Source: an uncultured Anaeroplasmataceae bacterium (GTDB taxonomy: Bacteria > Bacillota_I > Bacilli_A > Acholeplasmatales > Anaeroplasmataceae). From it: a stretch of DNA of 64,000 bases. Of the stretch, positions 34,792-54,604 are shown piece after piece. The notes beneath the pieces were generated by a model, which was given only the letters and a program-made list of their open reading frames with translations, was not told the origin of the DNA and made no database searches. The stretch spans positions 1-64,000 of the forward strand of contig CATKXV010000003.1 in assembly GCA_949840955.1 (NCBI GenBank), read 5' to 3'. Positions within the stretch are counted from its first letter, which is position 1. Each line of letters starts with the position of its first letter. The position numbers and the translations under genes were made by a program.

Positions 34792-35250
34792 TTATTTAAG
34801 GTATTCACCAAGAATCCTGAAAGCTTCTTTTTTATCAACAAGTGCAATAAAACCTATTATTGCTTCAAATGAAGTTGCATAGTCCTTCTTATTCATTTCC
34901 TGAAGATCAGTATTTGTAGCAAATAGCTTTCCTTCAAGTAATTTTTTGCCAATACTATTTAAATGCTGATTTGTGACTATTTCCTTCTTATCAGTTAATT
35001 CCTTTCGAGTACTATTCTTTTTAAATTCTTTTAGCATTACAAAAGATCCACAAATCGAATCCCCTACAGTTGCTAAAGCTCTATGATCACCTATTTTATG
35101 CTCATTTACATCATTATATTCTTTTGCAAATTGAGACATCGTTAACGATTGTACAGCTAATCCCTCAAATACAGTTGGCACATTAATTGATAGTAACTTA
35201 TAAAAGTTCAAAGCCTTATTCTTTAATTCTTCAAAAGGAAAGATTGTCAT
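34792..35250 (-). CDS. Single-domain RNase III-fold protein (Mini-III-like, altered active site)
   Basis: A protein of about 152 aa. HRALATVGDSICGSFVMLKE aligns with the RNase III signature, with KEIVTNQHLNSIGKKL next and DYATSFEAIIGFIAL matching the second acidic motif. The GD aspartate and the FEA glutamate are kept. The glutamate of LEFLGD is Ala here (LATVGD) and the Asp of the second motif is Thr. There is no dsRNA-binding domain. It may bind or weakly cut dsRNA. ATG 35250 is chosen because GGTGA is 6 nt upstream. Confidence 0.6.
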   Translation of the reverse strand: MTIFPFEELKNKALNFYKLLSINVPTVFEGLAVQSLTMSQFAKEYNDVNEHKIGDHRALATVGDSICGSFVMLKEFKKNSTRKELTDKKEIVTNQHLNSIGKKLLEGKLFATNTDLQEMNKKDYATSFEAIIGFIALVDKKEAFRILGEYLK

Positions 35251-35294
35251 TCTATTCACCAACTTTTTAACTTGAAATTTATAATATATCTGTT

Positions 35295-35459: not shown

Positions 35460-36374
35460 TTATTTTTTTACCTTTCCTAAATTTTCTCTTAATTTTATAT
35501 ATGAATAGTCATATATCCAATAATCTCTATTATAACCATAGTTTTTTAATTCTTCTTTTCTTGCAGATGTATTACACCTAACTAAATCATCAATAATGAG
35601 GCGATTACCACTATTATCGCTGATATTAAAATTTGGTTCTTTAAATTCATTTTCATCAATTTGATAATTATAATCATATAAATTATCAATTATAGAGTAA
35701 GATGAAATGTAGTTGCGTTCCAAGAAAAAATATTTAAGATATGTATTTAACAACACACAATCATCTAAAATATTCTGAGTTTCCTCTCTAGTGTTAACAC
35801 CGAAGATAATAACCTCTATTTTAAAATCATTTGTTTGATACCAGGCATTATTAACTTGCTTAATACTGATTTCATAATCAGACAGCATTTCTCGTATAAA
35901 ATCTAATAAAGCAACATCCTTTACTCCATTTAATTTTATATGAATAGTACCAATCCAATATTTGTTTTCTTGGCATTCTTTAAAAAATGCTAAAGCATCA
36001 GAATGATCAAAAAAATTAATACTATCATCCTCTTCATCTTCTTCATCAGATGCCAGTTTAATTTCATAATGATTCTGAACCTTAACAATCTCAAAGTCCT
36101 TTTCATTTGCAATAAAGCATGGAAATTTATTTGCTTTCTCATCATTTGTTTTGATATGACAGCAAATTAAATTTGATTCGGAATTTTTTCCGCCTTGTGT
36201 TTGAGGAAGAATATGATCAAGATTCCATCCATATTTACTATTTCTGTTTCCATAAGAGCCTTTATCCATTTCTCTTCCAGCAAAATCTTTAACCTTGGTT
36301 GCTTTGCCATAACGCTTATTCCAAAGCATCATTGCAGTTTCACGATTAATATTCATAATTGCATTTGTTTTCAT
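35460..36374 (-). CDS. HNH endonuclease family protein
   Basis: A 304-aa protein. The N-terminal 90 residues carry the HNH core: WNLDHILPQTQGGKNSESNL with the DH pair, the N of ESNL, and CHIKTNDEKANKFP as third element. The GNRNSKYGW segment before it replaces the usual CxxC knuckle. The remaining 200 residues are unassigned, acidic then mixed, perhaps a specificity domain. It is alone between copies B and C of the rlmCD end, with a structured 5' leader. Restriction or defence nuclease is likely; the target is unknown. Confidence 0.75.
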   Translation of the reverse strand: MKTNAIMNINRETAMMLWNKRYGKATKVKDFAGREMDKGSYGNRNSKYGWNLDHILPQTQGGKNSESNLICCHIKTNDEKANKFPCFIANEKDFEIVKVQNHYEIKLASDEEDEEDDSINFFDHSDALAFFKECQENKYWIGTIHIKLNGVKDVALLDFIREMLSDYEISIKQVNNAWYQTNDFKIEVIIFGVNTREETQNILDDCVLLNTYLKYFFLERNYISSYSIIDNLYDYNYQIDENEFKEPNFNISDNSGNRLIIDDLVRCNTSARKEELKNYGYNRDYWIYDYSYIKLRENLGKVKK

Positions 36375-36771: not shown

Positions 36772-38151
36772 TCATATCTTGTTTGCTTTATCAAATAACC
36801 ATAAAGCTATTTGAACTTGCAAATACAATTTCCATTCGTTTGTATAATAATTAAATTTAAAACAATTTTGAAATGCTGGTTCTAAAATTTTCAATTGAAG
36901 TCTTGGCCATTCATAATAATGTATTTTATATTTTTGGTCTAACTCTCTAGTGACTTCCATCAAGGACTCTATATCCATTTTCTGCTTAATTCCATCGTCC
37001 AAAATACTAAACATTTTCTCCATCTTGTTAGTATTAATTTTAGTCTTAGCATCAATAAATTGGCATTTATTATCTTTCTCTACTTCCATAGAATGGGCTG
37101 GATAAAGGAGACCAATTTTTTCTAGTTGATAATGATATCCTGATGGACTTTGTAAATCTGAAAATAATTCTAAATTAATTTCATCATCCTCAAAAATTAA
37201 ATCTTGTAATCGCTGATGAATCTCTTTAATTTCTTCTTTCACTGCATTTTGATAATCTTCTAAATGAGCTTGTAAATATGGTTCCTCATATTTTGTTTTA
37301 AAAATGGCTATCCATTCTTTGACAACATAATATTTATCATCGCCACATCTTTCCATTACTGCTTTTTGCAGTTCAAATAAATAATCAATATAATCCACAA
37401 ATTCTTCAGGAGTCTTTATATACTTGCTTCTTAAATTTTCTATTTTTTCTTTAAAATATCTTTCTGCAGCAAGCCTTATTTGTTTAAGAAAACTATATCT
37501 CTTTTCAATGTAATGAAAAATCTCATAAGTTTTTAAGTAAATAGTTTTAGTATAAGTACTTAAAATTTTCTCATCATTATCTTCATATTTATAAACTCTA
37601 GCATAGAAATCAGCACCATTGCTTTGCTTGTCAAATAATAAAGGATTCCCTTTACCTAAAAAACCGACATAAGGACACCATTCTGGATTGGATCCTTGAT
37701 ATATCCCATGTGAATTAGAATTTAGAGGATGAACAGAACATAAAGATCTAATATACTTAAAATACTCTTCATCGTTTCCATCTCCTGACTCTCCTGAATT
37801 GTGGAATGATGATACATCATTTTTTGTTTCATATTTAACATTAAATATTTTTCCTATTTGGGTAATACAATCTATAAGAGTTTGTCCATGAGTCAATAAA
37901 TTGCAAAGTTCAAAAATTCCTTCTTTTGTTTGTTCAATATTTAAAGAATTGCAATACTGAACTAAATCATCTATACGATCTAATGCCGCACAAATGCATA
38001 GGTATGAATCAGTCACAATCTGTTGTGTTGTTTTATCTGTTTTCTTTTTCGGCATTATAGTATTATGGCTTATTTTCAAAGTGAAATTGATATATTTATT
38101 TATTATTTTTCTTAACTTATCGTTTAAATCTTTATTCAAGTTTATTTTCAT
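36772..38151 (-). CDS. Helical protein with HEPN-like R-x5-H motif
   Basis: A protein of about 459 aa, nearly all helix with charged and aromatic residues. EYFKYIRSLCSVHPLNSNSH carries R-x5-H, followed by EWCPYVGF, a pattern I associate with large HEPN-type helical proteins of Firmicutes. No other catalytic motif is seen. The ATG at 38151 has AAAGGTG 6 nt upstream and overlaps the stop of the upstream gene (TAATG), so the two are a coupled pair. Function unknown; RNase-type toxin or defence effector is inference from the motif and the island. Confidence 0.6.
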   Translation of the reverse strand: MKINLNKDLNDKLRKIINKYINFTLKISHNTIMPKKKTDKTTQQIVTDSYLCICAALDRIDDLVQYCNSLNIEQTKEGIFELCNLLTHGQTLIDCITQIGKIFNVKYETKNDVSSFHNSGESGDGNDEEYFKYIRSLCSVHPLNSNSHGIYQGSNPEWCPYVGFLGKGNPLLFDKQSNGADFYARVYKYEDNDEKILSTYTKTIYLKTYEIFHYIEKRYSFLKQIRLAAERYFKEKIENLRSKYIKTPEEFVDYIDYLFELQKAVMERCGDDKYYVVKEWIAIFKTKYEEPYLQAHLEDYQNAVKEEIKEIHQRLQDLIFEDDEINLELFSDLQSPSGYHYQLEKIGLLYPAHSMEVEKDNKCQFIDAKTKINTNKMEKMFSILDDGIKQKMDIESLMEVTRELDQKYKIHYYEWPRLQLKILEPAFQNCFKFNYYTNEWKLYLQVQIALWLFDKANKI

Positions 38152-39116
38152 TATTTGCACCTTTCATTTACTTTTTGCTTTTCTTCGATAACTTGGTTAG
38201 TGCCACTATTGACTTGGTGCAATAAGTTTTCTAACCATTCATTTATTTCCTTATAAAGTTCATACTGGCATTGCTTATAATCTTTTTCTAAGACTGGTAA
38301 ATTCTTATTTATAAATTTTTTAAATACATCAAAAATTTTGTTCTTATTTTTCTGGATTTTCGATTCATCTCCGTGTTCAACATCATGATCCGTATATAAT
38401 CTTAATTGTTTTATATCATAAAGAGCTGGGTATTTATCAAAAGGAATATATTTTTCACTTCGATGTTTATTTCCACCAAAGCCCTCATAAAAAAGCATAT
38501 AACAGGAATTAATAATTGTCAAAAAATTTTCTTTTGTATTAGCAATCATCCCTACAATATTTCCCACATTTACATAATCATTTGAGGTTTGTTTAATTAT
38601 TTCTGAATCAATGAACTTAATCTTAGATAATTTGTCTGTAATAGAAAGTGACAGTTTATTAATTTTAACTGGGAGTGCTTTTTCAAATGCCTCATCAACA
38701 TCTATCTCTTTTGTTCTAACAATATAACCTGTGTCTCTTGCAATTACTCCATATAGATTAAGTCTTAAATAAACATCTATTTCATAAGATTTTCTATAAC
38801 CAGCAAGAGATAATATGGTTTGACTAATTATATCATTGACATAATATAACCACTGTATTTTAATTGGATTAGTTTCAATAGACAAATTAATAGATTCTAT
38901 TTGTTTATTTATTTTTTCTATTAAAGGCTTCAATGCATTTTCCATAATGTAAACTGAAGGAATGTTAAAAGAATTTAAATAATAAGCAAATTGATTTATA
39001 TATCCCCATGTCGGAATATTAGGAAGTTGATATTGCTTTAAAGTGTTAGAAAAATTCTCTAATGCAGTTATATATGGTATAACACCATTGTGTTTTGATA
39101 AAATGTCATTACTCAT
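38151..39116 (-). CDS. Helical protein with R-x4-H motif, partner of downstream gene
   Basis: A 321-aa protein of mostly helix. Near residue 240 it reads YDIKQLRLYTDHDVEHG, an R-x4-H motif with an acidic residue before the His, as in HEPN RNases. It ends with a long lysine-rich helix and EWLENLLHQ. It starts after a terminator that closes the dGTPase transcript, so it has its own promoter, and is coupled to the 459-aa gene by a one-base overlap. No named family assigned. Confidence 0.55.
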   Translation of the reverse strand: MSNDILSKHNGVIPYITALENFSNTLKQYQLPNIPTWGYINQFAYYLNSFNIPSVYIMENALKPLIEKINKQIESINLSIETNPIKIQWLYYVNDIISQTILSLAGYRKSYEIDVYLRLNLYGVIARDTGYIVRTKEIDVDEAFEKALPVKINKLSLSITDKLSKIKFIDSEIIKQTSNDYVNVGNIVGMIANTKENFLTIINSCYMLFYEGFGGNKHRSEKYIPFDKYPALYDIKQLRLYTDHDVEHGDESKIQKNKNKIFDVFKKFINKNLPVLEKDYKQCQYELYKEINEWLENLLHQVNSGTNQVIEEKQKVNERCK

Positions 39117-39274: not shown

Positions 39275-39847
39275 TTAAATAGAATGCTTTATATTGTAAT
39301 CAAAATACTTATATCCATCAAACTTATTAATAGTTCTTTCAACATAAGTATCTGTCATGCGGGCAATACCTTCCAAGATTATTTGCTTGATAATAGATTT
39401 GAGTGCTGGATCCATGTTGCCAGACTGATATTCTTCGTTAATTTTATCCATTGTTATTTCTCCAAGCATGCTACTACCTGATTCCTTAACTCTATTAATG
39501 ATTAAACGTTTACTATTACTATCTATCCTTCTAATATCTTCATTATAAATATAATAAAGAAGTTCAATATTCTTTTGACCTTCAATATTAGACATAGTTA
39601 TCACTTGATCGTTAATCATAAAACGATTATGTCTCTTAAAAATATTAATTGCGTTATCCAAAATATTAGGAAATGAAATAATCGGTTTATACTTTTTATA
39701 TCTATAATGAGGATGAAAAATTTTGTACTCCTGAGTTTCATAGTTTTGCCCAGAATTTGTTTTTTTGTATTTCACAAACATTGTGTCAAAAGAAATCTCT
39801 TTATTTTTCACCAAATCAGTTACATATGTAATTAAATCCTCAATCAA
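39275..39847 (-). CDS. C-terminal part of frameshifted dGTPase
   Basis: A reading frame of 190 aa. KPIISFPNILDNAINIFKRH and GIARMTDTYVERTINKF match the C-terminal helical part of dGTP triphosphohydrolases. The only start is a TTG overlapping the stop of the preceding frame. Upstream in this frame the sequence KTSEELIEDL joins smoothly to the end of the first part. The break is at a run of six A residues on the coding strand (39859-39864), where seven would restore one protein of about 590 aa. It may be dead, phase variable, or rescued by slippage. Confidence 0.6.
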   Translation of the reverse strand: MIEDLITYVTDLVKNKEISFDTMFVKYKKTNSGQNYETQEYKIFHPHYRYKKYKPIISFPNILDNAINIFKRHNRFMINDQVITMSNIEGQKNIELLYYIYNEDIRRIDSNSKRLIINRVKESGSSMLGEITMDKINEEYQSGNMDPALKSIIKQIILEGIARMTDTYVERTINKFDGYKYFDYNIKHSI

Positions 39848-41046
39848 TTCTTCAGAAGTTTTTTGGAAATCCTATATTGATATACAATCCGATTCGAAAA
39901 ATTAGAAGAGTCTGGAGAACTTGAGCATTCCAAAATCTTCCTTATATTTTTAACAATGACATCACAATAATTTGCGGTTGAACCTAAAAATTGTGACGTC
40001 TTTTCTCCATCATAATTACAAATATCATAGTTACTAATTTGAAGGTTAATCTTACTTTTGGTTTTATATTTTATATTTATTCTTTTGTTTATTTTTCTTT
40101 TGACATCTCTATTGTGACCTCTACTTGTGTTTTCTTTTGTGGTCAAAGTAATATCCTTTTTAATTTCGTTTAAACACTTCTTGTATCCTTCTAAATCTTC
40201 ACACAATTCTTCAAAAGCATTAGTATATTTTGCAGCATAATTAGATTTGTAATATAGTCTAATTGCATCATCAAAATCTGAAATGCGTTGAGAAATTTCA
40301 TCAGCAATGGCAACTATTTGCCCTTCTAATGATAAGGCAGCAGGGTAATTCAAGTAATTATCAATAAACGAATTTAATTTCATTAATTCAGTATTTTCAC
40401 AATACAACCCTTTGTACTTTACTACAAAATCGTTAATGAACTTTTGAAAATCCTCATTTTTAAGTAAAGGATGATTGCTAAAATAGACATATAGATTATA
40501 AGGATCATTTTTAACATCTGTTTTAGCTTGTTTAGGGTAAGCGTTTGTGTGTTTAATTACGCCATCAAATAATCTCCAATCATAATTGGGATAATTGAAA
40601 CCAAATCTTTCAACATTTTCATTCACATTGTTGCTTTCATTTGTTTTTATAATTCTAGGGTCTAAAAGAATTTTTGCAGAATGTATATTATGCTTAAAAT
40701 ATAAGCAATCATTTATTAGAAGATCATTGATTTTTTCCTCACCAATATGCCCAAATGGTGTATGTCCAATATCATGGGCATAAGCAATAGCTTTTACTAA
40801 ATTTGAATCCAAATAAATCTCTTTTTTTTCTAAAACAGGAGCTAATTTTTCTACAATTCTTTCTGCTATTGAAGCTACTTCCATTGTATGTGTTAACCTT
40901 GTCCTAAAATGTTCACTAATCCTTGTATTAAACATTTGAGTTTTATCTTGTAGCCTCCTTATTTCTTTAGAAAAAGAAATTTCAGTTAACATTTTTAAAT
41001 TATCTGGTTTTACGCCCTCTAAACATATTTCATTTTTTTGTTCCAT
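39844..41046 (-). CDS. dGTPase-like HD-domain triphosphohydrolase, N-terminal part
   Basis: A frame of 400 aa. RTRLTHTMEVASIAERI gives the first His (H53), AYAHDIGHTPFGHIGE the HD pair (H91, D92) plus H95 and H100, and AIADEISQRISDFDDA the last Asp. This is the bacterial dGTPase pattern, which cleaves dGTP to deoxyguanosine and triphosphate. Such enzymes can protect against phage by depleting nucleotides. The frame ends early at an A6 run, the rest being in the next frame. GGGGAG and a TATAAT box (41064-41069) precede it. Confidence 0.75.
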   Translation of the reverse strand: MEQKNEICLEGVKPDNLKMLTEISFSKEIRRLQDKTQMFNTRISEHFRTRLTHTMEVASIAERIVEKLAPVLEKKEIYLDSNLVKAIAYAHDIGHTPFGHIGEEKINDLLINDCLYFKHNIHSAKILLDPRIIKTNESNNVNENVERFGFNYPNYDWRLFDGVIKHTNAYPKQAKTDVKNDPYNLYVYFSNHPLLKNEDFQKFINDFVVKYKGLYCENTELMKLNSFIDNYLNYPAALSLEGQIVAIADEISQRISDFDDAIRLYYKSNYAAKYTNAFEELCEDLEGYKKCLNEIKKDITLTTKENTSRGHNRDVKRKINKRINIKYKTKSKINLQISNYDICNYDGEKTSQFLGSTANYCDVIVKNIRKILECSSSPDSSNFSNRIVYQYRISKKLLKN

Positions 41047-41140
41047 ATTATTATCTCCCCTCTATTATAAGAAATTTTTATTAAAATATAGTCCGGTTTC
41101 TAAAGAATAAAAATCTTTTTTTTACTCATACTAAAATTGG

Positions 41141-41196
41141 GTGGTTCCCTAAATCGAACCAGGCATAATTGCAATATATTATGCCTTTTATTTTTT
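41141..41196 (+). ncRNA. Small RNA A1 of array
   Basis: Starts about 7 nt after TAAAAT (41132-41137). Begins with the GGTTC/GAACC hairpin (loop CCTAAATC), then the terminator AGGCATAAT/ATTATGCCT with TTTTATTTTTT. Predicted length about 55 nt, with no room for a protein. The -35 region is poor. Confidence 0.5.
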
Positions 41197-41218
41197 AATT
41201 GTTTTTTTTATTTTTTTA

Positions 41219-41247
41219 TTGACAATGCCTATATATTTTGTTAAAAT
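41219..41247 (+). promoter_or_regulatory. Consensus promoter of small RNA B1
   Basis: TTGACA, exactly 17 nt, TAAAAT. An identical copy is at 41432-41460 for B2. Confidence 0.85.
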
Positions 41248-41253
41248 AATTAT

Positions 41254-41316
41254 GCGTTGTTCCCTAAATCGAACTAAAAATTATTCGAATCAATTTATAT
41301 GATTCGTATTTTTTTT
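41254..41316 (+). ncRNA. Small RNA B1 of array
   Basis: Predicted start 7 nt after the -10 box. It carries the core GTTCCCTAAATCGAAC (41259-41274), then the terminator CGAATCA/TGATTCG followed by eight T residues. About 63 nt. Confidence 0.65.
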
Positions 41317-41353
41317 ATTCTAAATTTGATTATTACTGCATATATAATATCGT

Positions 41354-41409
41354 GTGGTTCCCTAAATCGAACCATGCATAATTGCAATATATTATGTCTT
41401 TTACTTTTT
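41354..41409 (+). ncRNA. Small RNA A2 of array
   Basis: TATAAT at 41343-41348, then the core hairpin and a terminator stem with two substitutions relative to A1 that weaken it. About 55 nt. Confidence 0.55.
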
Positions 41410-41431
41410 AATTGTTTTTTTTATTTTTTTA

Positions 41432-41460
41432 TTGACAATGCCTATATATTTTGTTAAAAT
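41432..41460 (+). promoter_or_regulatory. Consensus promoter of small RNA B2
   Basis: TTGACA, 17 nt, TAAAAT, 213 bp after the B1 promoter and identical to it. Confidence 0.85.
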
Positions 41461-41466
41461 AATTAT

Positions 41467-41529
41467 GCGTTGTTCCCTAAATCGAACTAAAAATTATTCG
41501 AATCAATTTATATGATTCGTATTTTTTTT
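41467..41529 (+). ncRNA. Small RNA B2 of array
   Basis: Same sequence as B1 over its whole predicted length, 213 bp downstream. Confidence 0.65.
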
Positions 41530-41566
41530 ATTCTAAATTTGATTATTACTGCATATATAATATCGT

Positions 41567-41622
41567 GTGGTTCCCTAAATCGAACCAGGCATAATTGCAA
41601 TATATTATGCCTTTTATTTTTT
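41567..41622 (+). ncRNA. Small RNA A3 of array
   Basis: TATAAT at 41556-41561, then core hairpin and the same perfect terminator stem as A1. Last unit of the array. Confidence 0.55.
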
Positions 41623-41678
41623 AATAAAAATACATTGATATTTTATATCATTTGTAAATATTTGTCAATTAATTTACA

Positions 41679-48844: not shown

Positions 48845-48998
48845 AAAAAGACCACCTATTAAAATAATAGATGAACTTTTTTAAAGGAAAATATCAGTTA
48901 TCTCAGGTAAAACATTGTAAATCAGCGTAAAAAATGCTAAAATTAGACCATAAATTATTAAATTTGACCCCGAATTATTTTAATAGGTGGTCTTTTTT
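48845..48998. repeat. 24-bp perfect inverted repeat enclosing 106 bp with a promoter
   Basis: Arm 48845-48868 is the exact reverse complement of 48975-48998. The arms contain GACCACCTATTAAAATAAT. The 106-bp interior carries an outward-facing plus-strand promoter. Position: directly between the restriction operon and a tyrosine recombinase gene. This is the layout of an invertible promoter. Confidence 0.85.
48915..48943 (+). promoter_or_regulatory. Promoter inside the inverted repeat, facing away from restriction genes
   Basis: TTGTAA, 17 nt, TAAAAT with an extended -10 TG one base before. In this orientation it points towards the recombinase's 3' end. A minus-strand alternative (TTTAGC, 16 nt, TACAAT) overlaps it but is weaker. 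Confidence 0.6.
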
Positions 48999-53244: not shown

Positions 53245-54336
53245 CTAGTCCCCCCCCTCAATCTCTAGTACTTGTTTGAGAACACACCACGCAGCCAGGC
53301 GTTTAGCTCCTCGCTTTGAATAATCTCTTCCCCACCAACATATTCTCTTTTGATAATTTATTGAGCAATAACATTTCCATGCAGGATAACCTTGCTCATC
53401 ATAACTTTCTTCAAATCTATAATTAGGCATATCAAAGTATCCTTTTTGTGCAAGTTCCTGTAATTGATTAACTGCCAATTTTTCACAAGGATTATCTATT
53501 TCATCCTTAATCGTAAAAAGCAAGTTATTTGATTTTAAATATTCATAAGCAAGTTTGGCAGCCAACATTCTTGCTTCACTTTTAGAATTTGCATGGCCTA
53601 CAAATGGTTCTCCATTATCAATAAGTAATTCACAAGTAATATTACCAGAACCTAATTCCATTCGGTTTCTTTTATTAGCAATGCTTAAATTATTAATCAA
53701 TCTCTCCCATATATAAAGATTATTTTCTATATACAGATATTTTGGAAGTGTTTTGTATTGTTTTTGCACCCACTGTTGAATTAAATCAACATAGTTATCT
53801 TGCTCATTAAAATCATTCTGCAAATAATGCTGTGAATTTAACATTATTTCAACAACAGTTTCTATTATTATTAAACTCCAACCACAATCTAAAGCAACAG
53901 CTCCAATAATTGCTTCAAACAAATCTTCTTTTACAGATGGCTCATCTTGAGCATTTTTATTGATATCTCCATTGCCCATAATAAGATATTGATTTAAACC
54001 TAGTATATCAATTCGATGTGCAAGCATCTTCTTTTCAACCAATTTCTTCTTTAGGTTGGTAAATTCACCCTCAGTATAATCTGTAATGAACTCATTTTCA
54101 TCCTCATAGGAATCGTATTCATCTTCATCTTCTGCATACCAACCATAATTATCCATAAGGATTTTCACTACTGCTAGATCTAGGGCTTTATCACCAATGA
54201 ATTCTAGTACTTCGTTGTTTTCTCCACCATTTTCTTCGGAATATGATTTTCTTACAAAGGCTTGTTGTAAAAGGTCCTTATTATGAAATTCATACCCAAT
54301 CACATTTTCAATTTCTTCTAAATCGTTTCTGTTCAT
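53245..54336 (-). CDS. RNase III with two dsRNA-binding-like domains, island-borne
   Basis: About 363 aa. The nuclease domain keeps the full signature NNEVLEFIGDKALDLAVV (both Glu and the Asp) and the second acidic site KEDLFEAIIGAVALD, so catalysis is expected. An acidic insertion (EDEDEYDSYEDENEF) lies between helices. Two dsRBD-like segments follow: NSKSEARMLAAKLAYEYL (about 260-280) and YSKRGAKRLAAWCVLKQVLE at the end. Housekeeping RNase III is about 230 aa with one dsRBD. ATG 54336 is chosen for AAGG upstream and the domain start. A run of eight G ends the gene. Confidence 0.82.
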   Translation of the reverse strand: MNRNDLEEIENVIGYEFHNKDLLQQAFVRKSYSEENGGENNEVLEFIGDKALDLAVVKILMDNYGWYAEDEDEYDSYEDENEFITDYTEGEFTNLKKKLVEKKMLAHRIDILGLNQYLIMGNGDINKNAQDEPSVKEDLFEAIIGAVALDCGWSLIIIETVVEIMLNSQHYLQNDFNEQDNYVDLIQQWVQKQYKTLPKYLYIENNLYIWERLINNLSIANKRNRMELGSGNITCELLIDNGEPFVGHANSKSEARMLAAKLAYEYLKSNNLLFTIKDEIDNPCEKLAVNQLQELAQKGYFDMPNYRFEESYDEQGYPAWKCYCSINYQKRICWWGRDYSKRGAKRLAAWCVLKQVLEIEGGD

Positions 54337-54604
54337 ATAATTAAACCTTCTCTTTCTATAATTTGAAGGCAAACAAAAAGTCTAACATAATTTACACTAC
54401 TCCCATTAGAAAATAGTTTTCTTTTATTGTTAGACCTAATTGATTAAATTATATTACATAAATCATTCTTATTTATTAAATCCCACTTGCATAAGCTAAA
54501 ATAAATATCTTCTATTTTATGTTGCATATTTAAACAATTAGTATTTTGTATGCCTCCTTATTTAGATAATATCAAAAATGAAAAATATTGTCAATAAATT
54601 TTAT

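Follow-up and report, generated by a model that had tools for sequence, protein, structure and literature searches.

An array of five predicted small RNA units of two types beside an HD-domain dGTPase gene

Introduction

Small RNAs encoded in several sibling copies are well known (PMC6794450, PMC12101431, PMC5880928, PMC4211561). The LhrC1-5 RNAs of Listeria exist as five short copies, of which several are clustered and one is located elsewhere in the genome; each has a loop containing C and a terminator hairpin. They are 111-114 nt long, pair with Shine-Dalgarno sequences through three CU-rich UCCC sites, and are controlled by LisRK. The csRNAs, PrrF1/2, OmrA/B and AbcR1/2 are also duplicated sRNA genes, in which a constrained part is common to the copies and the rest differs. 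They usually form two tandem copies, give longer RNAs than those described here and are conserved across genera, and PrrF shows read-through across the first terminator.

A second group of systems places a regulatory RNA beside an enzyme. In type III toxin-antitoxins the RNA repeats lie directly upstream of the toxin on the same strand, separated from it by a terminator; the RNA inhibits the toxin protein by binding it, and the pairing of the two is kept across relatives. In AvcID, an RNA holds the nucleotide-depleting enzyme AvcD (a dCTP deaminase), and loss of the RNA frees AvcD; transcription shut-off also triggers dGTPase defence, whose toxin-antitoxin status is stated to be unclear (PMC10511110). 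A dGTPase can need restraint, as in Clover (PMC12265719), where CloA is restrained by a nucleotidyltransferase and a nucleotide signal; no RNA has been reported in Clover.

Here we describe an array of short repeated units in a 64,000-nt stretch of DNA, called the window below, from a genome that its relatives suggest belongs to the Bacilli. With five related short units of two types in one genome, where two such units are enough to speak of tandem or multicopy sibling sRNAs, its layout is a variant of this known arrangement and no new class. The first-pass annotation of the window knew of no described class with this layout, a statement that LhrC1-5, the csRNAs, PrrF and OmrA/B contradict. 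The array resembles LhrC in its copy number, loop and terminators, but its predicted RNAs are 58-61 nt long and have one loop, with no Shine-Dalgarno signal and no Rfam match. Compared with the csRNAs, PrrF, Omr and AbcR, it has five copies, very short ones, found in one genome only. It shares with type III systems and AvcID a repeated, here predicted, RNA beside an enzyme, but array and enzyme gene are divergent, the repeats have individual terminators (weakened in A2), the enzyme is a dGTPase, and an RNA-like unit occurs at three of nine subfamily loci. The enzyme next to the array is distantly related to the anti-phage dGTPases and to Clover (CloA/CloB), and no nucleotidyltransferase was recognised near the array. 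The array could therefore work like LhrC or like type III toxin-antitoxins, and we assign it to neither: to LhrC because of the missing model match and Shine-Dalgarno signal, to type III because of the gene order and the limited conservation.

Structure of the array

The 16-mer GTTCCCTAAATCGAAC is present in five exact copies within 41144-41585, all on the + strand, which start at 41144, 41259, 41357, 41472 and 41570. The copies and their spacing of 115, 98, 115 and 98 bp, noted in the first-pass annotation, were reproduced by direct search against shuffled sequences: with up to three mismatches allowed, 0.37 occurrences are expected by chance in the window, and none of the shuffles reached six. 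The array as a whole is as follows.

41132..41625, + strand: whole array, 2.3 copies of a 213-bp unit in the order A1-B1-A2-B2-A3

It turned out that the 213-bp repeat (97% identity, by Tandem Repeats Finder and direct comparison) carries the alternating order, so the array has two independent unit types, A and B, rather than five; the five copies are real, but the five-unit description counts a duplication. Six base differences separate repeat 1 from repeat 2: three fall at the left edge, and the others are located within the A2 terminator or next to it. The B parts and all cores are identical between the two repeats. A single unequal exchange between two A units flanking one B is a plausible history.

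The comparison of A with B is more informative. The core is identical, whereas 14 of 30 upstream and 22 of 46 downstream positions match, where composition alone gives about 34%, and outside the 16 nt the two types can hardly be aligned. In 3000 shuffles the longest word common to A and B was 15 nt (mean 7.7), against 16 for the core. This indicates that the GTTCCCTAAATCGAAC core is constrained between A and B. The stem sequence is unchanged in both types, which fits an RNA hairpin and a DNA site alike.

Promoters, terminators and predicted RNAs

We summarized the putative transcription signals along the array; all of the following lie on the + strand.

41132-41137: promoter side of A1, with only a -10-like TAAAAT
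41139..41196: predicted RNA A1 (core 41144-41159, terminator stem 41161-41186)
41219..41247: B1 promoter, TTGACA-17-TAAAAT with extended -10
41254..41314: predicted RNA B1 (core 41259-41274, terminator stem 41286-41306)
41319..41348: A2 weak promoter-like site, TCTAAA-18-TATAAT (9/12)
41352..41409: predicted RNA A2 (core 41357-41372, terminator stem 41374-41399)
41432..41460: B2 promoter, TTGACA-17-TAAAAT with extended -10
41467..41527: predicted RNA B2 (core 41472-41487, terminator stem 41499-41519)
41532..41561: A3 weak promoter-like site, TCTAAA-18-TATAAT (9/12)
41565..41622: predicted RNA A3 (core 41570-41585, terminator stem 41587-41612)

Promoters matching at least 11 of 12 positions number three, against 0.13 expected on both strands together; two belong to B1 and B2, one being a copy of the other, and the third, at 41668-41640, is directed along the minus strand. 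Looser promoter-like sites show no excess over chance. A promoter for every unit, as first proposed, is thus seen in B1 and B2, while A2 and A3 reach only 9/12 and A1 has a bare -10-like box. Eight terminator-like sites were detected against 0.1 expected, of which the four on the + strand have true T-tracts, while those reported for the minus strand correspond to these same stems and have poor tails. The claim of a strong terminator in each unit has to be relaxed for A2, where two changes in the stem weaken the terminator (41374-41399), which the detection missed. Folding agrees with the short RNAs that had been predicted, with the core as a 5' hairpin: the predicted products of 58-61 nt fold into a 5' hairpin with the loop CCUAAAUC, followed by the terminator stem, with z-scores of -1.9 (B), -3.6 (A2) and -3.2 (A1). 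As far as sequence can tell, there is good support for a promoter-hairpin-terminator layout in the B units and, for the most part, in the A units.

Small ORFs of 24-57 aa also lie inside the array. We considered them as toxin peptides and set them aside, by judgement and without a formal test, as a by-product of the T-rich sequence.

Direct repeats at regular distances, in an island that has an integrase-type ORF, could also be replication iterons, or partition sites, for an initiator or a ParB-like protein. We regard this as very improbable: the spacing is long and alternating with promoters and terminators in between, the island lies between chromosomal genes, and the neighbouring proteins tested included no recognisable initiator or Par protein.

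The dGTPase operon

On its right side the array is bordered by degraded frames and on its left by a divergent dGTPase gene that reads leftward, which agrees with the earlier placement between a dGTPase gene and broken genes. The features on the minus strand are the following.

41640..41668, minus strand: promoter TTGACA-17-TAAAAT, directed through the array toward the dGTPase
39844..41046, minus strand: HD-domain dGTPase, related to anti-phage dGTPases, the proposed target
39275..39847, minus strand: 190-aa ORF overlapping the dGTPase end, with a weak C-terminal dGTPase-like motif (MTDxY)
36772-39116, minus strand: ORFs of 462 and 321 aa behind the dGTPase

The dGTPase matches the PADLOC dGTPase profile (1e-44) and TIGR01353 (1.6e-40), the scores being below the NCBIfam curated cut-offs. 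The motif in the 190-aa ORF is short and C-terminal (E 0.03-0.08), and the dGTPase may be split into two ORFs (39275-41046). The 462-aa and 321-aa ORFs had no match in Pfam, NCBIfam, PHROGs or PADLOC; their predicted structures have a confidence of about 40 and are unusable. A relative of the 321-aa protein, 25% identical, occurs in one other genome (L032). Scans of the collection that used only the dGTPase or only the 321-aa protein gave no match.

No site in the interval from the array to the dGTPase start scores above 8/12 as a promoter, while the far side of the array has one of 11/12. The only strong promoter of the dGTPase operon lies beyond the array, and if transcription starts from this promoter at 41668-41640, the dGTPase leader (about 590 nt, 41633-41047) would be complementary to each of the five + strand RNAs.

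Relatives of the dGTPase locus

Profile searches gave eight other members of this dGTPase subfamily, membership being defined by full-length or strong profile matches. In G327, TTGACA-16-TATACT is followed by two identical GTTCTTAGCTGAAC hairpins 55 nt apart ahead of the dGTPase, both of the GTTC-N6-GAAC type, and the second is an intrinsic terminator just before the dGTPase start (L093 4868-4950, G327:C73). This double motif was absent from the viral contigs searched. In G232, TATAAT is followed by a hairpin-terminator of about 55 nt that ends a few bases before the dGTPase ATG (L143 4160-4230, G232:C18); this terminator could instead belong to the upstream gene. The G232 dGTPase also lies in two overlapping frames. 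G195 has only a different, large and unrelated hairpin upstream of the dGTPase, and inspection by eye found no such unit upstream of the gene in G017, G377, G530, G656 and G665.

Thus an RNA-like unit is seen at three of the nine subfamily loci (the window, G327 and G232). GTTC/GAAC arms are common to two of these three (the window and G327), with loops of 8 and 6. Since five relatives are without any unit, the link between array and dGTPase that the relatives provide is suggestive and amounts to no rule across the subfamily. The layout of type III systems, with RNA, terminator and enzyme on one strand, is seen in G327 and possibly in G232.

These arms can also be read as DNA. A repressor bound to GTTC-N8-GAAC downstream of the -10 might control both the divergent dGTPase promoter and the short transcripts. 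The core is indeed a short inverted repeat with 16 of 16 bases unchanged between A and B, it is located just downstream of the -10 boxes, and the arms recur ahead of the G327 dGTPase. However, the central 8 bases are non-palindromic, the arm spacing changes from 8 in the window to 6 in G327, an operator has no need of the terminator that follows each site, the second G327 copy is itself a terminator stem, and no repressor gene was recognised nearby. We consider such operators unlikely.

Candidate targets of the loop

The first-pass annotation suggested that the loops pair with Shine-Dalgarno sequences, which our searches did not bear out. For the 51 start regions of the window examined, predicted binding by the core is no stronger than by shuffled versions of it. 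Beyond the window, the genome scan covered GATTTAGGG sites, and none of the 23 located outside the array lies just upstream of a start. One of them, 24 nt inside the frame of a 230-aa gene (C7:17022), offers a 12-nt complementary stretch. The same place had been picked up as a sixth near-copy of the core and was rejected, being at about chance level inside a coding frame.

These results bear on the reading in which the RNAs are trans-acting siblings, in the manner of LhrC or the csRNAs, which act on mRNAs elsewhere with no special link to the dGTPase, the copies adding dose. Its anatomy is that of multi-copy sibling sRNAs, and the unpaired loop is invariant, as expected of a seed; the complementarity at C7:17022 would supply a target. 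The lack of pairing excess at the window starts, the 23 sites without a fitting position and the near-chance level of that sole candidate count against it, and we hold it to be possible but rather unlikely.

Distribution of the array

No further copy of the GTTCCCTAAATCGAAC array is present in its own genome, and no relative was found among the other genomes of the 392-genome phylum sample, in the genome collection (two-copy pattern search), or in plasmids and phages. Exact 16-mer, two-copy and BLAST searches covered plasmids, phages, viral contigs and genome contigs without yielding a relative of the array. The viral contigs contain a single exact 16-mer match, in unrelated GC-rich sequence. 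Viral CCCTAAATCG repeats were also examined and found to be unrelated to the array, several of them resembling coding repeats. Besides, contigs L021, L023 and L027 have repeats of about 33 bp with CTATTCCCTAAATCGGGAATAG, which are possibly coding and unrelated as far as seen. A DNA search of 60 relatives returned only short AT-rich matches, which were judged to be noise. In Rfam no family reached the gathering score, and a relaxed search gave weak chance matches far below the gathering scores. Because the array has no homologue, there is no covariation to draw on, and two independent units are too small a number for a covariance model.

The array might be a remnant, either decayed or neutral: a limited tandem expansion within an island of broken genes, whether transcribed or not, with no present function. 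The degraded flanking frames, the possible split of the dGTPase, the damaged terminator of one A unit and the lack of a homologue in any collection searched would all suit this. Yet A and B are near background outside the core, and the core is intact with a terminator kept in each type, which neutral decay fails to explain; we find a remnant doubtful.

Possible restraint of the dGTPase

Our preferred reading is that the array consists of tandemly duplicated small RNA genes which most likely restrain the adjacent dGTPase, a tentative proposal that we rate at somewhat under an even chance. RNA polymerase would start mainly at the strong B promoters and less at the weak A sites, and transcription would stop at the intrinsic terminator just after the 16-nt core. 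The products would be RNAs of about 58-61 nt with the 5' hairpin GUUC-CCUAAAUC-GAAC, and possibly longer B-A read-through RNAs. They might pair with the dGTPase mRNA leader, antisense to the array if made from the 41668 promoter, or they might bind the dGTPase enzyme, as RNA antitoxins do. Loss of the RNAs on transcription shut-off would then release the dGTPase, a step borrowed from AvcID and from the transcription-shut-off trigger of dGTPase defence (PMC10511110).

In favour of restraint, G327 and G232 have a promoter-hairpin-terminator unit directly upstream of the dGTPase. Against it, the array RNAs are oriented away from the dGTPase, in contrast to those of type III systems, the promoters of the A units are weak, and five of the eight other subfamily members are without the unit. 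The RNA antitoxin idea of the first-pass annotation survives in this form, with some support from the two relatives and weakened by the divergent orientation in the window.

In a more specific version, the array would act as a short-lived RNA brake made up of several units, which holds back an anti-phage dGTPase until phage-induced shut-off removes the RNAs and frees the enzyme; in G327 and G232 the brake would take the form of a single transcript. We offer this version as speculative and improbable as a whole. No description of an RNA-restrained dGTPase defence was found in the literature. The RNA array beside the dGTPase, together with the units of the two relatives, makes the toxin-antitoxin question directly testable, and an RNA brake on a neighbouring enzyme, if true, would bear on how such enzymes stay quiet. 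Even if the dGTPase link fails, the array would probably stand as an unusually compact multi-copy sRNA locus without known homologue.

Other features of the island

The island is flanked by chromosomal genes and also holds an HNH ORF, a methyltransferase, an integrase-type ORF and other defence-like ORFs. A Staphylococcus-1 RNA (Rfam RF03112; 36428-36553, minus strand; 90.5 bits, above the gathering score) sits between the 462-aa ORF and the HNH-type ORF (35460-36374). Toward each end of the island there is an RNase III-type ORF, at 34792-35262 and 53245-54372 on the minus strand, one of the two being a weak match. A 24-nt perfect inverted repeat with 105 nt between its arms (48845-48997) adjoins the start of the methyltransferase ORF, near the integrase-type ORF.
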